A DNA stretch of 24,327 nt, taken from positions 1-24,327 of IMG/VR virus record IMGVR_UViG_3300008266_000782; one strand, written 5' to 3'. The notes beneath the pieces were generated by a model that searched no databases, was not told where the DNA came from, and saw only the letters and a list, made by a program, of their open reading frames with translations. This document shows positions 1,276-13,219 of the stretch, one piece after another (within the stretch, counting starts at the first letter, position 1; each line of letters opens with the position of its first letter). Both the position numbers and the translations under genes were made by a program. This stretch comes from a virus.

Positions 1276-1358
1276 CCACGATAAGTTAATTGAGTCACGG
1301 CATTTGCCACATACAATTAACTGTAGATAAATGTAGTAATTATTACAGTTTATAGTGC

Positions 1359-1382
1359 AACACTAAATGTTAAATTAGTGTT
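1359..1382. terminator. 8-bp hairpin at the end of the 90-aa gene
   Basis: AACACTAA at 1359-1366 pairs perfectly with TTAGTGTT at 1375-1382 around an 8-nt loop, and overlaps the stop codon of the minus-strand gene that ends at 1381. A clean T-run is missing on both sides, so it may only protect a transcript end. The rest of 1276-1380 is AT-rich, with another inverted repeat TTAATTG/CAATTAA. Confidence 0.35.
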
Positions 1383-7558: not shown

Positions 7559-8025
7559 CTTCCCAAGAATTGAAATGGCATTGCCGGTTTATGAGATTGG
7601 CATTGCAAGTTTCAAAATGGAGCAAAGATCCGAGCACAAAAGTTGGTTGTGTTCTTGTTCGAGATAAAAAAGTTTTAAGCACTGGCTACAACGGTTTTCC
7701 CAGGAGAGTTGGTGATGACCTCAATCGACTTTCAGATCGAGACATCAAGTACGAGATCACAGTCCATGCTGAAGTTAATGCTGTTACAACAGCTGCACTT
7801 CATGGCATCAGTACTGAAGGAGCTACTGCTTATGTCACTTTCAATCCATGCTCTCGCTGTGCTGCTGTACTGCTTAACGCTGGTATTGATTCCGTCTATA
7901 GCTACGCAGGTGCCGACATCCCTAACCGTTGGTTAGAAAACTTCATACTTGCCAGCAGGCTTTTTGCTGAAGCTGAAGTAAAGTACGACACCATTGATCC
8001 TGACTCCTACCCAGAAGAATCATGA
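7555..8025 (+). CDS. deoxycytidylate (dCMP) deaminase
   Basis: A 156-aa zinc-dependent deaminase converting dCMP to dUMP, the feed for dTMP synthesis during phage replication. The zinc and proton-transfer motif is H71-A-E73 (HAEVNA) and the paired cysteines are C99 and C102 in NPCSRC. TGYNGFPR at about 43-50 is the usual substrate-loop motif. Length fits the family (about 140-190 aa). It is joined by ATGA overlaps to the genes on both sides, forming a nucleotide/ssDNA operon. No allosteric domain beyond the core is obvious. Confidence 0.93.
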   Translation: MTSQELKWHCRFMRLALQVSKWSKDPSTKVGCVLVRDKKVLSTGYNGFPRRVGDDLNRLSDRDIKYEITVHAEVNAVTTAALHGISTEGATAYVTFNPCSRCAAVLLNAGIDSVYSYAGADIPNRWLENFILASRLFAEAEVKYDTIDPDSYPEES

Positions 8026-8771
8026 ACAACTTACTTGCCACTGGTATTTATGCTGGTGAAAAATTCATGGATAATGGTTTGCGTTTTGTGCAAATCAATC
8101 TTCCTAAAGTTGGTAATTCTGGTGCACAAGTTCCGTTACTTGTTGTACCAAATAAAGCGGCTGGTGAAACTTTTGATGTGTTCCAACCAGGAGCATCATT
8201 GTTAGTTGGTGGTCGGTTGTATCCTAACCGTCAAGACTACAAGATGTACTTGGTTCCTAATCAAGTGTTTCAAATTGCACCGCCCAACTTAACTGTTAAT
8301 CAAGTTAATCTTGCTGGTGGTGTTGGTTTTATTCCTGAACAGAACCGTGAGGATCTGTTTACTTTCTCGCTGATGTGCTCGGCGCCAGCGCAGCAGATCC
8401 TTGGTCACACCTGGGATGACAGCCTGGCATTCCGCATGGAAGCATGGGGTGATGATGCCAAGCGCATGACCACAAACCTCCACGTGGGGCGGCAGATTGC
8501 TGTGACTGGTGTGCTTCGGTACAACACCTGGACAACACAGGACGGTCAGCAACGCGGCATGTACCAGGTCCGCGTTAAGAGCGGGAGCTACGCCTTCTTT
8601 GGTAAGAACAAAAAGAAGGAGGAGCAGAACGAGCTACGGGCAGTCAACAGCGGTAATCGGTTTGAGTCTCCAGCAGCTGTAACTGCTGAGCCTTATCAGT
8701 CTGCTGTGCAGTTGCCTCCACTGCAACAGGATGTGCCAGCTGGCATCAGCACCGATGACGTACCTTTTTGA
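8022..8771 (+). CDS. single-stranded DNA-binding protein, two OB-like halves
   Basis: A 249-aa protein ending STDDVPF, the acidic tip typical of bacterial SSB (DDIPF) that recruits partner proteins. The body splits into two beta-rich halves (about 1-95 and 108-197), the second with HVGRQIAVTGVLRYNTWTTQ and MYQVRVKSGSY as in OB-fold SSBs. A linker rich in Gln, Ser and Pro precedes the tip. The N-terminal half resembles another OB domain, so it may be a double-OB SSB, longer than the usual ~170-aa form. It shares an ATGA start with the dCMP deaminase stop. Confidence 0.82.
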   Translation: MNNLLATGIYAGEKFMDNGLRFVQINLPKVGNSGAQVPLLVVPNKAAGETFDVFQPGASLLVGGRLYPNRQDYKMYLVPNQVFQIAPPNLTVNQVNLAGGVGFIPEQNREDLFTFSLMCSAPAQQILGHTWDDSLAFRMEAWGDDAKRMTTNLHVGRQIAVTGVLRYNTWTTQDGQQRGMYQVRVKSGSYAFFGKNKKKEEQNELRAVNSGNRFESPAAVTAEPYQSAVQLPPLQQDVPAGISTDDVPF

Positions 8772-8932
8772 TAAGAAAAAGTTATCAGTAACAATGGATT
8801 GAATTGCTCGACCTTAGCTAAGGTAGGGGAGCGAAGAACCGATGGGTTGTAGGTCATTCCTACAACTCTTTCATCCTCAGGTCAGCACCAGTGGACCAGC
8901 TCACTGTGTAGGTGCAACTCCTGCTCTGAGGA
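8769..8932 (+). ncRNA. structured leader or small RNA between SSB and the 306-aa gene
   Basis: No gene fits 8772-8954. TGATAA/TTATCA (8769-8774, 8782-8787) overlaps the SSB stop. Next come a 14-nt palindrome ACCTTAGCTAAGGT (8811-8824) bracketed by GCTC/GAGC, a perfect 8-bp stem GTTGTAGG/CCTACAAC (8846-8853, 8859-8866), and TCCTCAG/CTGAGGA (8874-8880, 8926-8932) enclosing about 45 nt. Being just upstream of the 8955 ATG, it may be a 5' leader, a processed RNA or a transcript end. The family is unknown and no ribosome site is visible. Confidence 0.45.
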
Positions 8933-8954
8933 CCATCCAAACGCACTGAACGTA

Positions 8955-9875
8955 ATGTCTGTACTGAACCGCTACCTCAACACTGAGAAGTACCAGGGTG
9001 TCCTGCGTGACTTCTGCAACTGCCAAATCCTAAATGACAAGAGCCAATGTGGCCTCTTTCTGAAGGATACGGTGCTTGCCCGTATTGGGTGGACTGGTAC
9101 TCCTGATCAATTTCCTGATGCTGAGGAGTATGAGCACACCTATAACAACGGTGATAGCAACAAAGGAATCTTCTTTAAGACTCCTCGCATGGTAGTCCTG
9201 CACTGCGGTTTCAGGAAAGATGTCACCTTTATCGAGAACTCCGAGAAGGGTGGCATTGAAGGAATCTATCCCCGTGATTCGTTTCTTTATGACGATTGGC
9301 AGGAAAAGAATCCCAACAAGCCTTCGCCTTACAAGCGTCGTCGCCTTGTTCTGATCTTCCTTGTCGATGAAAAGGGCACACCGGTTCATAAGAAACCGCT
9401 GCTCCTTTCAATCCACGGTGGCGCTTCCAACCTGTTTACCGATGCCTATGGCACTTTCATCGAGCAGCTGGAGTCTGCATTTGCTGAATTTGCTGGTCTG
9501 AAAGGTGGCGCTGGGTTTGACCCGAAGCAAGCTGCTGCTGCAATCTTTACTCCTACTTTTGGTTCTCAGCTTTACGGCGAGAGCAACAAGAGCTGGATTG
9601 CATTCCCCAAGCAATGGGTTGTCCCCACGGTCAAGAACATCGAATCCTTCTTCCCTAAGGGAGAAGATGATATTGATTTCATTGAGGAAGTGTGGGAGAC
9701 CTGCCCGCCTGAAGTGTATGCCAAGTCCTTCTTCCAGCAATGTGAGAAGGAAATTGGTTACCACGCCATTAAGCCTGGCCTTGATTTCTCGCTTCCTCCT
9801 GTTGAGTCGTCCGGCTCCAGTGCTCGTGTGCTGACAGGCGCACGGGATCCTGAAACCGGTGAGATCGAGCTTTGA
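8955..9875 (+). CDS. conserved phage hypothetical (306 aa, perhaps DUF5895)
   Basis: A 306-aa soluble protein with mixed alpha/beta features: RYLNTEKYQGVLRDFCNC at the start, ARIGWTG, PYKRRRLVLIFLVDEKG and LLLSIHGGASNLF, then a Pro/Ser-rich tail ending DPETGEIEL. I believe such proteins occur widely in cyanobacteria and their phages and have been called DUF5895, without a known activity; this is from memory. It is the last gene of the nucleotide/ssDNA run and is followed by a clear terminator. A DNA-replication role is a guess from neighbours. Confidence 0.7.
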   Translation: MSVLNRYLNTEKYQGVLRDFCNCQILNDKSQCGLFLKDTVLARIGWTGTPDQFPDAEEYEHTYNNGDSNKGIFFKTPRMVVLHCGFRKDVTFIENSEKGGIEGIYPRDSFLYDDWQEKNPNKPSPYKRRRLVLIFLVDEKGTPVHKKPLLLSIHGGASNLFTDAYGTFIEQLESAFAEFAGLKGGAGFDPKQAAAAIFTPTFGSQLYGESNKSWIAFPKQWVVPTVKNIESFFPKGEDDIDFIEEVWETCPPEVYAKSFFQQCEKEIGYHAIKPGLDFSLPPVESSGSSARVLTGARDPETGEIEL

Positions 9876-9900
9876 TCTAGACTGCTCTTGGAATGTTTAG

Positions 9901-9924
9901 CCGCTCCCTCGGGGGCGGTTTTTT
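9901..9924 (+). terminator. rho-independent terminator
   Basis: CCGCTCC at 9901-9907 pairs with GGGGCGG at 9912-9918 (one T-G wobble) around a short loop, followed by six T residues at 9919-9924. It ends the 7388-9875 plus-strand unit. The stop codon of the convergent gene (9923) falls in the T-run. Confidence 0.85.
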
Positions 9925-10168
9925 ATTCTTCGTAGTAGGTCTTGATCACATCAGCTTCCAGGTTGGCAAGCCGTGCAACCAAACTTCTAATGATGGCTTG
10001 GCGGTGTACAGCTAGTTGAAGAAGCTTTAATGCACCTGCTCTTAAAACTTCTGGATCTTTAGCTGCTTCTAGTTCCTTTGTAATCTTTGCCATGAGGAAT
10101 TCATCTTCTAAAGAAAGATTGAAATCATCAGGACTGAACTTAAATTCAATTAGTTCAAAGCCAGACAT
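9923..10168 (-). CDS. small helical protein (81 aa), weak NblA-like look
   Basis: An 81-aa all-helical protein: SLEDEFLMAKITKELEAAKD forms helix one and a long helix follows from about residue 38 (LRAGALKLLQLAVHRQAIIR). The LSLEDEF start, acidic first helix and RQ-rich second helix recall NblA, the ~60-aa phycobilisome-degradation adaptor found in some freshwater cyanophages, but this protein is longer and I cannot confirm key residues. It is transcribed away from the 10292 gene from its own TTGACA-TAGACT promoter (10189-10216). Safer call: small coiled-coil protein of unknown role. Confidence 0.65.
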   Translation of the reverse strand: MSGFELIEFKFSPDDFNLSLEDEFLMAKITKELEAAKDPEVLRAGALKLLQLAVHRQAIIRSLVARLANLEADVIKTYYEE

Positions 10169-10188
10169 ATTGACATGGCATAATGTTC

Positions 10189-10216
10189 AGTCTAAACATT
10201 CAACATTTAGTGTCAA
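10189..10216 (-). promoter_or_regulatory. divergent promoter, left copy
   Basis: On the minus strand TTGACA (10216-10211), a 16-bp spacer, then TAGACT (10194-10189). The start would be near 10182, about 14 nt before the ATG at 10168. Both boxes and the spacer length are the same as in the rightward promoter at 10236-10263. Confidence 0.65.
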
Positions 10217-10231
10217 GTAACTATTGTTACT
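10216..10231. promoter_or_regulatory. inverted-repeat operator between twin promoters
   Basis: AGTAAC-TATT-GTTACT is a perfect 6-bp inverted repeat with a 4-bp centre, lying between the two -35 boxes of the divergent promoters. A dimeric repressor or activator bound there could control both genes. The cognate protein is not evident; an AbrB-like gene (13203) and a winged-helix gene (14897) are candidates. Confidence 0.5.
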
Positions 10232-10235
10232 GTGC

Positions 10236-10263
10236 TTGACACCACAGGCTAAGAACCTAGACT
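10236..10263 (+). promoter_or_regulatory. divergent promoter, right copy
   Basis: TTGACA (10236-10241), a 16-bp spacer, then TAGACT (10258-10263), followed about 28 bp later by ATG 10292. It should drive the basic peptide, the membrane protein and the following genes. Confidence 0.65.
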
Positions 10264-10291
10264 GGCACTGGCTTCTGAGCTCTCAGCTACA

Positions 10292-10423
10292 ATGGCAAAG
10301 AAATCCTTAACGGGCGCAATGCACAAAGAGTCCGTGCCTAAGCGGACCTCCATTGGCCATGGCCGGCGGAAACGTGGCTCGTTTAAGAACAGCAAAAAGT
10401 ACAGAGGACAAGGTAAAGGTTGA
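10292..10423 (+). CDS. basic cyanophage peptide, TSIGHGRRKR type (43 aa)
   Basis: A 43-aa gene: MAKKSLTGAMHKESVPKRTS, then IGHGRRKRGSFKNSKKYRGQ and a short basic end. It is very rich in Lys and Arg with no acidic cluster, so nucleic-acid binding is likely. I recall short proteins with a TSIG-x-G-x-R pattern and a K-K-Y-R-G-Q-G end in many cyanophages. The stop overlaps the next ATG (TGATG at 10421-10425). It is the first gene of its transcript. Confidence 0.7.
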   Translation: MAKKSLTGAMHKESVPKRTSIGHGRRKRGSFKNSKKYRGQGKG

Positions 10424-10629
10424 TGCGTCGAACAATGTCTAGCTCTTCTTCCAACTCCAGTGGGATTGGTTTTGTTGGGATGCTTCAAATCCTTTTTATT
10501 GGATTGAAGCTTACTAACTTCATTGCTTGGCCTTGGTGGCAGGTTTTGCTGCCAACTATTATTAGTTTTTCCATTCTTATTATTTGCTTAATTATTGTTG
10601 CTATCATTCTTTTCTTCAAAGATAAATAG
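10423..10629 (+). CDS. small membrane protein (Fragile-X-F-like, 68 aa)
   Basis: A 68-aa protein with a Ser-rich start (SSSSSNSSGIGFVG) and two hydrophobic segments at about 17-35 and 40-64, separated by the aromatic patch AWPWWQVLLP. The G-F-V-G-M-L-Q then FIGLKL...WPWWQVLLP pattern matches the short phage and bacterial proteins annotated as transmembrane Fragile-X-F protein. It likely sits in the host inner membrane; its role is unknown. Start ATG 10423 overlaps the preceding stop; a TTG at 10420 is the alternative. Confidence 0.75.
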   Translation: MRRTMSSSSSNSSGIGFVGMLQILFIGLKLTNFIAWPWWQVLLPTIISFSILIICLIIVAIILFFKDK

Positions 10630-10691
10630 TAATTAGTTAACCGACCTGGAGGATGTCGTTAAAAGCCTCATGCACACACCACCTGACCGTA

Positions 10692-11564
10692 ATGACCGTA
10701 ACCGAAGCGCTGCTTTCTGATGCTCAGCGTCTTGTGTATGGACGCAGAAGAATTGTTGATACGCTCTACCAAGAAGATCCTGATAAGTTCAAGGTTCTAC
10801 AAGCAACTGATATTCAATCCATTTCACTCCAAGATGATCTGGTTTGTTTAGATCTTGCAGACACCCAACTCTATATAGAGAGGGCAAAAATTCTCAAAAA
10901 TTTTTGGGAGCACAGAACACGTACACCCTCCTACTTTGATTACAAGGTTTGGAGCCAAGCATTAAGCAGCCGTCCTTGGAATGGTACGCCTGTTGCAGCT
11001 TTAGATTACGGTCCATCTTCCACAATGGATGCGCTTCAGCCGTTGCTTGGACGTGCTCCACGCATCCAAACTGATAAAGATGGAGTACAGAAGTTGTACT
11101 TTGTCATGGAGAAAGAGGAGATGTGTAGCTGTGAATCTTGGAACCAGCTGCATACTCATCGCCAGGAATTTTCTGATGAGTTCTCTACTTATACGGACAT
11201 TCAATTCAAACCTATTTGTAAACATCTTCAGTGGTGTTCTGCCAACATGATGCTTCATGCCATTCGGTTTGAAGCCAGGCAAGGGGAGAAGGAATACAAT
11301 CCACGGATCTGCGTCTATTATTTTGATCACCGTCGTGGTTTGTTGCTTTATCGCGTTACCTATGACGGTGTAAAGACTGGTGGTCAGTGGTTACCTGTCA
11401 GTGGTTGGAAAGAGAAAGCTGTTTATGACAACAATCACATGCCAACTGGCGCATGTTGGCAGGTGTTTACTGATGCCTTAACGCAAGATCCGCCTTTTAA
11501 ACTCTCTCCTTATTCGCAAAGTCTTGGTGCTCTGATGAATAGCACCCGTTCTAAGCAGTCCTGA
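10692..11564 (+). CDS. SWIM-type zinc-finger hypothetical (290 aa)
   Basis: A 290-aa protein (303 aa if it starts at ATG 10653, whose GGAGG is too close to act as a ribosome site). A possible SWIM finger is present: C145-x-C147 (MCSCESW), then 28 residues to C176-x-H178 (ICKHLQW), the CxC...CxH arrangement used for DNA or protein binding. The spacing is longer than usual and the rest of the protein (LVYGRRRIVDTLYQ near the start, VYYFDHRRGLLLY near the end) is unfamiliar. It lies between a membrane protein and the Gp157-like gene. Confidence 0.65.
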   Translation: MTVTEALLSDAQRLVYGRRRIVDTLYQEDPDKFKVLQATDIQSISLQDDLVCLDLADTQLYIERAKILKNFWEHRTRTPSYFDYKVWSQALSSRPWNGTPVAALDYGPSSTMDALQPLLGRAPRIQTDKDGVQKLYFVMEKEEMCSCESWNQLHTHRQEFSDEFSTYTDIQFKPICKHLQWCSANMMLHAIRFEARQGEKEYNPRICVYYFDHRRGLLLYRVTYDGVKTGGQWLPVSGWKEKAVYDNNHMPTGACWQVFTDALTQDPPFKLSPYSQSLGALMNSTRSKQS

Positions 11565-11588
11565 TTGCACACTACCGCATTACTCACC

Positions 11589-12185
11589 ATGGCCGACAAA
11601 CTCAGCCTCATTCAAATTGCTGAATCCATTCAGCACATCGGTTTCCTCAAGGATATGCCTGACATTCCTGAGGATGAACGGGCTTTACTGGAGCAACACC
11701 TTCATGATCTGGCTTCTCGCCAGGAATCTAAATTTGATGCCATCATTGGCATGATTAAAAAGTGCGATGCTTACATCGATGCATTGCAAACAGAGATGGA
11801 TGAGATTAAAGCAAACCTAGAAGCTTGGAAAAAGAATCGAGAAAAGATGGTTTCTATTGTTAAGTTTGCTTATCAGCAGAACCTCATTGATAACAAACCA
11901 ACTGGTGTCAAGTATCAAGCCACAATTAGAAAGGTTAAACCACGTCTTGTGGATAACTTTGAACACTGGGAAGAGGAAGATAGAACTGAGTTTGGTTTGC
12001 GTAAGACTACAACAGTAACGCGCATTAAAGACAACACTGTTGTAGATGTAAAGCAAGAGGATATTCCAGATAAAGATCGTGTTAGAGAAGCCCTTGCTAC
12101 TGACGACGGTTCAGCGCCAGTGGCTGCTCAGCTCGTTCCTGGATTTTCTTTTGTTTATGAGCGCCGCAAAAGGTTGACAACGTGA
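11589..12185 (+). CDS. Siphovirus Gp157-like protein
   Basis: A 198-aa protein from ATG 11589, chosen over an in-frame TTG at 11565. A long coiled-coil region at about 32-90 ([20 protein letters not shown], then [19 protein letters not shown]) is followed by a basic beta region ([17 protein letters not shown]) and a C-terminal [13 protein letters not shown]. This order matches the Gp157 family of phages, whose role is unclear although resistance to other phages was reported for one member. The gene ends just before the structured RNA region. Confidence 0.75.
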
Positions 12186-12195
12186 TAAACTAAAT

Positions 12196-12558
12196 GAGTT
12201 CCCCCTCTCTTTTCGATGGGGCTCAGTTGGCCGCTGATGCGCCGGGGACCGATTCGGCAAGCGCGAAGGCTGGGTGACTCGTTAGGCAGATAGCCTAGAA
12301 GGAGAGCCCAAGATAGAGGTGCAGTCCCTGTCTGGATACGCCTGGTTAACTCATAGCCCGATTGTCGGTAAGCCAGTCACACTGCATCCATCTATCCCTT
12401 AGGGTGTAACAAGGAACGTTGCATTAAACAAAAGATCCCCTCGGCCGCATCGTAGATTCACCGTTAAGTTTGTGGTAACACAGCCCTAGCGATGGTCGGT
12501 GAACGTAGGCGGACATCCTTGCCCTCGGTTCAGGCGGCGTCCGATAACGTCGCCCCAC
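12196..12558 (+). ncRNA. candidate large structured RNA
   Basis: This ~360-nt stretch lacks a coding frame and looks GC-richer than its neighbours. Stems seen: GAG(tt)CCCC with GGGGCTC at 12196-12224; GCCG/CGGC at 12241-12258 inside GCGC; TAGGC/GCCTA at 12283-12297; a long two-part stem GATAGA/TCTATC (12312-12317, 12391-12396) plus TGCAGT/ACTGCA (12320-12325, 12381-12386) enclosing a sub-domain with CCGA-TTG-TCGG; and alternative GGGCTC/GAGCCC (12219-12224, 12304-12309). It leads directly into a tRNA-like element. GOLLD is a known phage RNA class found near tRNAs; I cannot confirm membership. Promoter not clear. Confidence 0.6.
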
Positions 12559-12634
12559 CACCCAGTCCGAGCCAATTGGATAGGACGGCTACTGCTGCTG
12601 CAGGGCGATGCGGGTTCGAATCCCGTCTGGGTGC
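12559..12634 (+). tRNA. tRNA-like element, degenerate
   Basis: A 7-bp acceptor stem (CACCCAG 12559-12565 with CTGGGTG 12627-12633), a textbook T-arm (GCGGG-TTCGAAT-CCCGT at 12610-12626) and a D-loop-like AATTGGATA are present in tRNA order over 76 nt. The D-arm has about two extra bases and only a shifted TCC/GGA stem. No 5-bp anticodon stem with a 7-nt loop can be drawn; CTGC-TGCT-GCAG sits there instead. No CCA is encoded. It may be a decayed tRNA, a tRNA-like end of the upstream RNA or an attachment-site remnant. No amino acid is assigned. Confidence 0.45.
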
Positions 12635-12635
12635 T

Positions 12636-12806
12636 ATGAAACCTCGTTACTTGTGGCACCTGTGGGCAAAAGCCCTTGGAGAAAAAACAGGACGCACTGC
12701 CTCTGAAGCTGATCAAGTTGCTGTTATCCGCTCCATAATTTTCTTTACTTATTTCTTAACCAACTGTTTCATTGTGGCTGGTGTTATTCGCCACTGGAAC
12801 AATTGA
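12636..12806 (+). CDS. conserved cyanophage membrane protein (56 aa)
   Basis: A 56-aa protein MKPRYLWHLWAKALGEK..., then a membrane segment at about 33-50 (IIFFTYFLTNCFIVAGV) and RHWNN. I recall very similar short proteins from several cyanophages, function unknown. The in-frame upstream extension to 12492 reads through the tRNA-like element and is rejected. The ATG begins 1 nt after the tRNA-like element ends, with no ribosome site, so processing of the RNA could yield a nearly leaderless message. Confidence 0.75.
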   Translation: MKPRYLWHLWAKALGEKTGRTASEADQVAVIRSIIFFTYFLTNCFIVAGVIRHWNN

Positions 12807-12895
12807 GTCTCAAATAAGACTTAACACTTTCTCCCTACCCTCCCTAGTCACCAACAAAAGAATCCGCTAATCTTGGTCCGGCCTCCCGCTTGCAC

Positions 12896-13219
12896 ATGAC
12901 TGAGTTTTACTACAAGGATTACGACGATTACTTTGAGATTTTTGTTGAGCATTCTAAAAAGATTGCTGAAATGATGTCACAACTCAACTACCAAATTACT
13001 GAGTTTGGTTTAGAGCCAGTGTCTAGCTACAAGTTGTTTCGCATGACACTGGATTTGCTTTATCATGCAGATCAAACTTATAAGATTGAGAAAGATATTC
13101 CTAACAAATATGACCTGTTAGCTTTCCCTTCTTCCAATGAAATGCTTAATTCAATGCGATCTGTCCTTAAGGAAGAACTTGATCGGTACTTGGGATCTAG
13201 CGATGCAACCAACCAATGA
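12896..13219 (+). CDS. hypothetical acidic helical protein (107 aa)
   Basis: A 107-aa protein starting MTEFYYKDYDDYFEIF; ATG 12896 is chosen over a TTG 6 bp earlier. It is acidic and helical throughout (VEHSKKIAEMMSQLNYQI, MLNSMRSVLKEELDRYL), without membrane segments or known motifs. Its end overlaps the start of the AbrB-like gene by 17 bp. The upstream gap 12807-12895 contains only a small AGTCT/AGACT hairpin and no clear promoter. Confidence 0.65.
   Translation: MTEFYYKDYDDYFEIFVEHSKKIAEMMSQLNYQITEFGLEPVSSYKLFRMTLDLLYHADQTYKIEKDIPNKYDLLAFPSSNEMLNSMRSVLKEELDRYLGSSDATNQ

Follow-up and report, generated by a model that had tools for sequence, protein, structure and literature searches.

Which regulator acts at the palindrome that separates two divergent promoters in an uncultured viral genome, and which genes does it serve? 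The locus lies in a window of 24,327 nucleotides, the whole stretch of DNA that was analysed (IMG/VR record IMGVR_UViG_3300008266_000782), and its features are listed in Table 1. The original prediction was that two identical mirror-image promoters flank an operator placed exactly between their −35 boxes, and that an AbrB-like (13203) or a winged-helix (14897) protein of the phage uses it as a switch for the leftward 81-aa gene and the rightward operon. The reading preferred here, to which we give a probability of roughly 0.72, is that the palindrome is a site for host NtcA within a promoter of the class II NtcA-activated type, from which the 81-aa gene would be induced under nitrogen stress.

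Both strands carry TTGACA-N16-TAGACT, facing apart, at 10189-10216 (−) and 10236-10263 (+), and the perfect 6-4-6 palindrome AGTAACTATTGTTACT lies at 10216-10231, all as predicted; the window has no second copy of the palindrome. Two such TTGACA/TAGACT pairs (spacer 15-19) were observed in the window against a shuffle mean of 0.03, and none of the shuffles reached two. Both promoters scored 10/12 in a sigma-70 scan of positions 8000-13000, the top score, which was tied with one other site. The palindrome does lie between the promoters but not exactly midway, as its first base (10216) is also part of the leftward −35 box, it ends 4 bp short of the rightward −35 box, and its centre (10223.5) is 2.5 bp to the left of the midpoint between the two boxes (10226). 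From the putative NtcA site within it to the rightward −35 box there are 5 bp. The 81-aa gene and the first rightward gene are separated by 123 bp, and the latter starts 28 nt past the rightward −10 box and opens an operon for the 43-aa basic, the 69-aa hydrophobic and a 303-aa protein, as well as others. No tRNA was found in the window.

Table 1. Features of the divergent promoter region and flanking genes (positions in the window).
Feature	Position	Strand	Remarks
Upstream rightward gene, DUF5895	8955-9875	+	
Terminator-like hairpin, end of upstream rightward gene	9899-9920	+	
81-aa two-helix protein, picocyanobacterial small-protein family, distantly NblA-like	9923-10168	−	
Dyad AATGTT-N7-AACATT over leftward −10	10182-10200		18 of 19 columns invariant
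Leftward −10, TAGACT	10189-10194	−	fits TAN3T; 22 nt downstream of putative NtcA site
Leftward −35-like box, TTGACA	10211-10216	−	adjoins putative NtcA site
Putative NtcA site, GTAACAATAGTTAC (GTA-N8-TAC)	10217-10230	−	core of palindrome 10216-10231
Rightward −35, TTGACA	10236-10241	+	invariant in six haplotypes
Rightward −10, TAGACT	10258-10263	+	invariant in six haplotypes; also present in G014
43-aa basic protein (MAKKSLTG...), opening gene of the rightward operon	10292-10423	+	weak phrog_516 match
Second rightward gene, 69-aa hydrophobic protein	10420-10629	+	phrog_1374

Judged by its proteins, the phage is distantly related to the freshwater Synechococcus phage S-EIV1, the nearest cultured relative found (primase 36%, DNA polymerase 40%, exonuclease-like protein 43%). 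Because the DNA polymerase, primase, exonuclease and other genes are common to both phages, a cyanobacterial host that carries NtcA is likely, host identity being assigned here from gene relatedness only. A DNA search against phages gave short, weak matches only. Across positions 8000-13000, the sole DNA-level match in cultured phages is a stretch of ∼150 bp (12652-12800) that is 70-75% identical to the cultured Synechococcus phages DSL-LC03, S-B05 and S-CREM1.

Viral contigs contain 14 relatives of the 81-aa gene. Loss of the repeat in close relatives would have spoken against the original prediction, but 13 of the 14 keep it together with the whole divergent region, in six distinct haplotypes that vary at 37 of the 123 intergenic columns. 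All six agree at each of the 12 bases of the rightward boxes, at the T, A and T that define the leftward TAN3T and at the 6 GTA/TAC letters, though the last of these alone are weak evidence since 70% of the intergenic columns are invariant anyway. The inner letters of the dyad differ among haplotypes while the NtcA letters are constant. In the leftward promoter, the TTGAC part of the −35 box is invariant, and one haplotype has TAAACT as its −10 box. As the leftward −35 box drifts to TTGACG in four of the six haplotypes, the identity of the twin boxes, though exact in the window, is not conserved among the relatives and is on this comparison partly accidental. The fourteenth relative, G014 (L016), has an insertion of ∼1.5 kb between the two promoters. 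Its rightward promoter survives as TTGACG-N16-TAGACT and it keeps a variant of the dyad over the leftward −10 box, but the palindrome and the NtcA site are gone, and the 81-aa gene is retained without the putative site. The dyad over the leftward −10 box may be a separate control site. AbrB-like and winged-helix genes were present in 7 of 8 related contigs searched, including G014. Conservation thus gives good support to divergent control of the 81-aa gene and the rightward genes from this region, as in the original prediction, whose proposed binders are not supported.

In canonical NtcA-activated promoters, GTAN8TAC is centred near −41.5 and the −10 box has the form TAN3T, and sites at a distance of 22 nt from that box are termed putative class II sites (PMC3898017); the NtcA site was later redefined as GTN10AC (PMC6166021). 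Read leftward, the palindrome supplies the GTAN8TAC string and is followed after exactly 22 nt by TAGACT, or by its TAAACT form in the one haplotype. Of 15 related contigs (14-81 kb), 14 contain the pattern GTAN8TAC-N22-TAN3T a single time and in every case at this promoter; the fifteenth is G014, which has its insertion at the spot. The reversed control pattern gave 8 scattered matches in ∼635 kb of the same contigs. Dinucleotide shuffles of the 123-bp intergene contained the N22 string in 0.09% and N20-24 versions in 0.37% of cases, figures that are post hoc, the motif having been chosen after the sequence was viewed, and that serve as a guide only, with conservation and the host parallel weighing more. 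Another NtcA-like string, GTAGTAATTATTAC-N24-TAAATT, occurs at 1333-1376 (+), just beyond the end of the leftward frame 1381-1653 and with no obvious start codon just downstream; close versions are found in G001, G003 and G013.

The product of the leftward gene was considered as a possible NblA. It scores 14.9 bits against NblA PF04485, below the Pfam curated cut-off of 25, and NblA is its sole sequence match in the PDB (E 0.2). When a profile of 55 host NblA sequences was run against 4,935 phage frames, the nine copies of the 81-aa protein (from nine contigs, including the window) all ranked within the top 15, with a best E of 0.002 and 0.02 for the copy in the window. Comparison of the 81-aa family with NblA by hhalign gave 55% over 65 columns (0.2% for the reversed control), and 43% with the S-EIV1 ortholog [AHV82171] added. 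This ortholog occupies the same place, on the strand opposite to its neighbours, and matches the 81-aa family at 91%, but alone it has no match to NblA. The structure model of the 81-aa protein has helices at 20-35 and 39-79 (mean pLDDT 77), and Foldseek and VIA-align listed many unrelated hairpins; such comparison did not separate NblA from other helical hairpins, and the absence of NblA from the lists is not informative. The assignment as NblA was dropped because of the score below the Pfam cut-off and the S-EIV1 ortholog without an NblA match. An S-EIV1-type ortholog of the gene in a 95-kb contig (L190, 2501-2716) has an in-frame TAG at codon 38.

When genome contigs were scanned with the 81-aa alignment, no close similarity emerged; a later profile search did find matches. 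The phage-family profile with the S-EIV1 ortholog included detected small proteins down to E 1e-6, and most of these were encoded in cyanobacterial genomes of 1.7-3 Mb. Within one cyanobacterial family, 59 of 81 genomes encode members of the small-protein family, and hhalign comparisons of the phage and host small-protein families gave 87% and 95%. From these profile matches, the 81-aa protein is a member of a host small-protein family whose kinship with NblA is distant at most and that we take, from genome size and protein sequence, to be picocyanobacterial.

Host NblA is matched more closely by a second small family (MDANALDLPIDSEFAIHAA...; AHV82245 in S-EIV1, annotated as hypothetical) than by the 81-aa family, with E 1.6e-5 for the S-EIV1 member and 85% by hhalign for the uncultured group, and this second family is likely to represent an unannotated NblA-like gene. 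It is located at 73902-74222 (+) in S-EIV1 [KJ410740; L034/L189] and at 49455-49691 (−) in G005, with homologs in G014, G004, G010, G011 and G003. Clear NblA proteins, 40-71% identical to picocyanobacterial NblA, are encoded by 62 viral contigs (L126-L187), a number well above that of the cultured cyanophages with the gene, which are few.

The host genes of the small-protein family provide a parallel for the phage promoter. In a subgroup beginning MSEPLALSLGQ..., GTN10AC-N21-TAN3T was found upstream in 13 of 14 loci, within otherwise diverged sequence, the 14 loci being related to one another and not independent. The end of GTN10AC is 53-63 nt from the start codon, and the relaxed motif occurred in 0.8% of shuffles of the host upstreams. 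Only 3 of the 13 sites have the strict GTAN8TAC. The genomes of this subgroup (mostly 2.7-3.9 Mb) are presumably of Synechococcus/Cyanobium type. In addition to GTN10AC, the host promoters (L229-L251 upstreams) have in common a block, GAAACA..TTTGTAGC, that covers the −10 box; GCTAC and GTAGC form an inverted pair.

A general use of NtcA by phage nblA genes was rejected. None of the 62 viral contigs with clear nblA has an exact GTAN8TAC within 300 bp upstream, and the relaxed class II motif is absent within 150 bp in 36 distinct phage nblA upstreams. Likewise, the class II motif was not found within 250 bp at eight host nblA genes (cyanobacterial genomes of 2-3 Mb), nor GTAN8TAC within 350 bp of PaV-LD nblA, and nblA of Ma-LMM01 overlaps nrdA, the gene upstream of it. 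Because the phage and host nblA genes examined lack the motif, the NtcA-type promoter goes, in phage and host, with the small-protein family and not with NblA proper.

The motif, its spacing and conservation, the protein family and the host parallel point to the following course of events. Infection or the environment would raise 2-oxoglutarate and load host NtcA, the 2-oxoglutarate-sensing nitrogen regulator, which would bind at 10217-10230 and switch on the leftward 81-aa gene under nitrogen stress. The leftward start is predicted near 10182, placing the NtcA site at −41.5 and leaving a leader of ∼14 nt. The targets of the 81-aa product would then be proteins of the host, for which it may serve as a degradation adaptor. 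An ordinary, conserved sigma-70 promoter, with its start expected at about 10267-10271 (+), would serve the rightward operon, and since the two predicted starts are ∼88 bp apart, two polymerases probably compete for the same ∼90 bp.

Some observations run against NtcA activation. G014 has the 81-aa gene without the site, and S-EIV1 has no exact NtcA site in the 40-bp gap before its ortholog. Most host sites fit GTN10AC only, and the conserved block overlies the host −10 box. The leftward promoter also carries a −35 element, TTGAC(A/G), and might be active in the absence of NtcA. In one alternative, two ordinary constitutive sigma-70 promoters stand back to back, and both the palindrome and the NtcA-like spacing are coincidental. 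The strong consensus boxes of both promoters and the invariant leftward TTGAC fit such a pair, but the exact canonical spacing is rare in the shuffles, the site is retained in all six haplotypes, a similar promoter precedes the host family gene, and the last base of the leftward −35 box drifts; we consider coincidence improbable. Much the same low probability is given to the palindrome being an operator through which a phage regulator, whether the AbrB-like protein, the winged-helix protein or another, toggles both promoters. In its favour are the dyad between divergent promoters, perfect in the window, and the presence of both regulator genes in most relatives examined. However, there is one good copy per genome, the inner dyad letters vary between haplotypes where the NtcA letters do not, and G014 has both regulator genes without the palindrome, so the binders originally proposed are not favoured.

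NtcA activation of the 81-aa gene could also extend to a true switch, in which NtcA activates the leftward promoter and hinders the rightward one and nitrogen status picks the operon. Single NtcA sites acting on two divergent starts and NtcA-repressed promoters have both been described (PMC3898017), and the short distances from the site to the rightward −35 box and between the two starts are in keeping with this. Yet known repressing sites are downstream of the −35 box (PMC3898017), whereas the site here is upstream of the rightward −35 box, centred near −46.5 from the predicted rightward start, and the extension is doubtful. Equally speculative is its biological corollary, that one NtcA dimer between overlapping promoters lets the host nitrogen state choose between an NblA-like host-remodelling gene and an early replication operon, in parallel with the host promoter of the same family.

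The locus has known counterparts on both the promoter and the protein side. The phage promoter shares GTAN8TAC, the 22-nt gap and the TAN3T −10 box with the class II NtcA promoters of glnA, nirA, urtA and ntcB (PMC3898017), but is located in a virus, has the extra TTGAC(A/G) at −35 and is overlapped by a sigma-70 promoter that points the other way within the same intergene. Compared with the host family promoter, it has the strict GTAN8TAC and N22 in place of N21. The phage and host proteins (MSEPLALSLGQKFELERM...) share the pattern LxLxxxF...LR..A..LL, with a longer N-terminus and C-terminal helix in the phage members. Phage nblA genes are well known, and the cyanophage proteins encoded by those of Ma-LMM01, PaV-LD, MaMV-DC and S-SCSM1 (PMC9602691) resemble the 81-aa protein, with its modelled two helices, in their small size, two-helix make-up and LxLExEF-type start. 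Host NtcA sites in cyanophages have likewise been predicted, both in cyanomyoviruses from the sea (PMC3037559) and upstream of viral focA-nirA (PMC8115048). Those phages have 1-16 predicted sites, whereas each genome here has one class II N22 site; the group is close to S-EIV1, and the site precedes a gene for a small host-like protein. Apparently new, in the literature searched, are a single conserved class II site in a group related to S-EIV1, the family of the adjoining gene and the promoter that matches it in the host. With one exactly spaced site per genome across diverged relatives, and a comparable promoter at the host copies of the gene family, the locus offers a clear and cheap test case for whether phages exploit the host nitrogen signal, and it points to an uncharacterised small-protein family common to picocyanobacteria and their phages.
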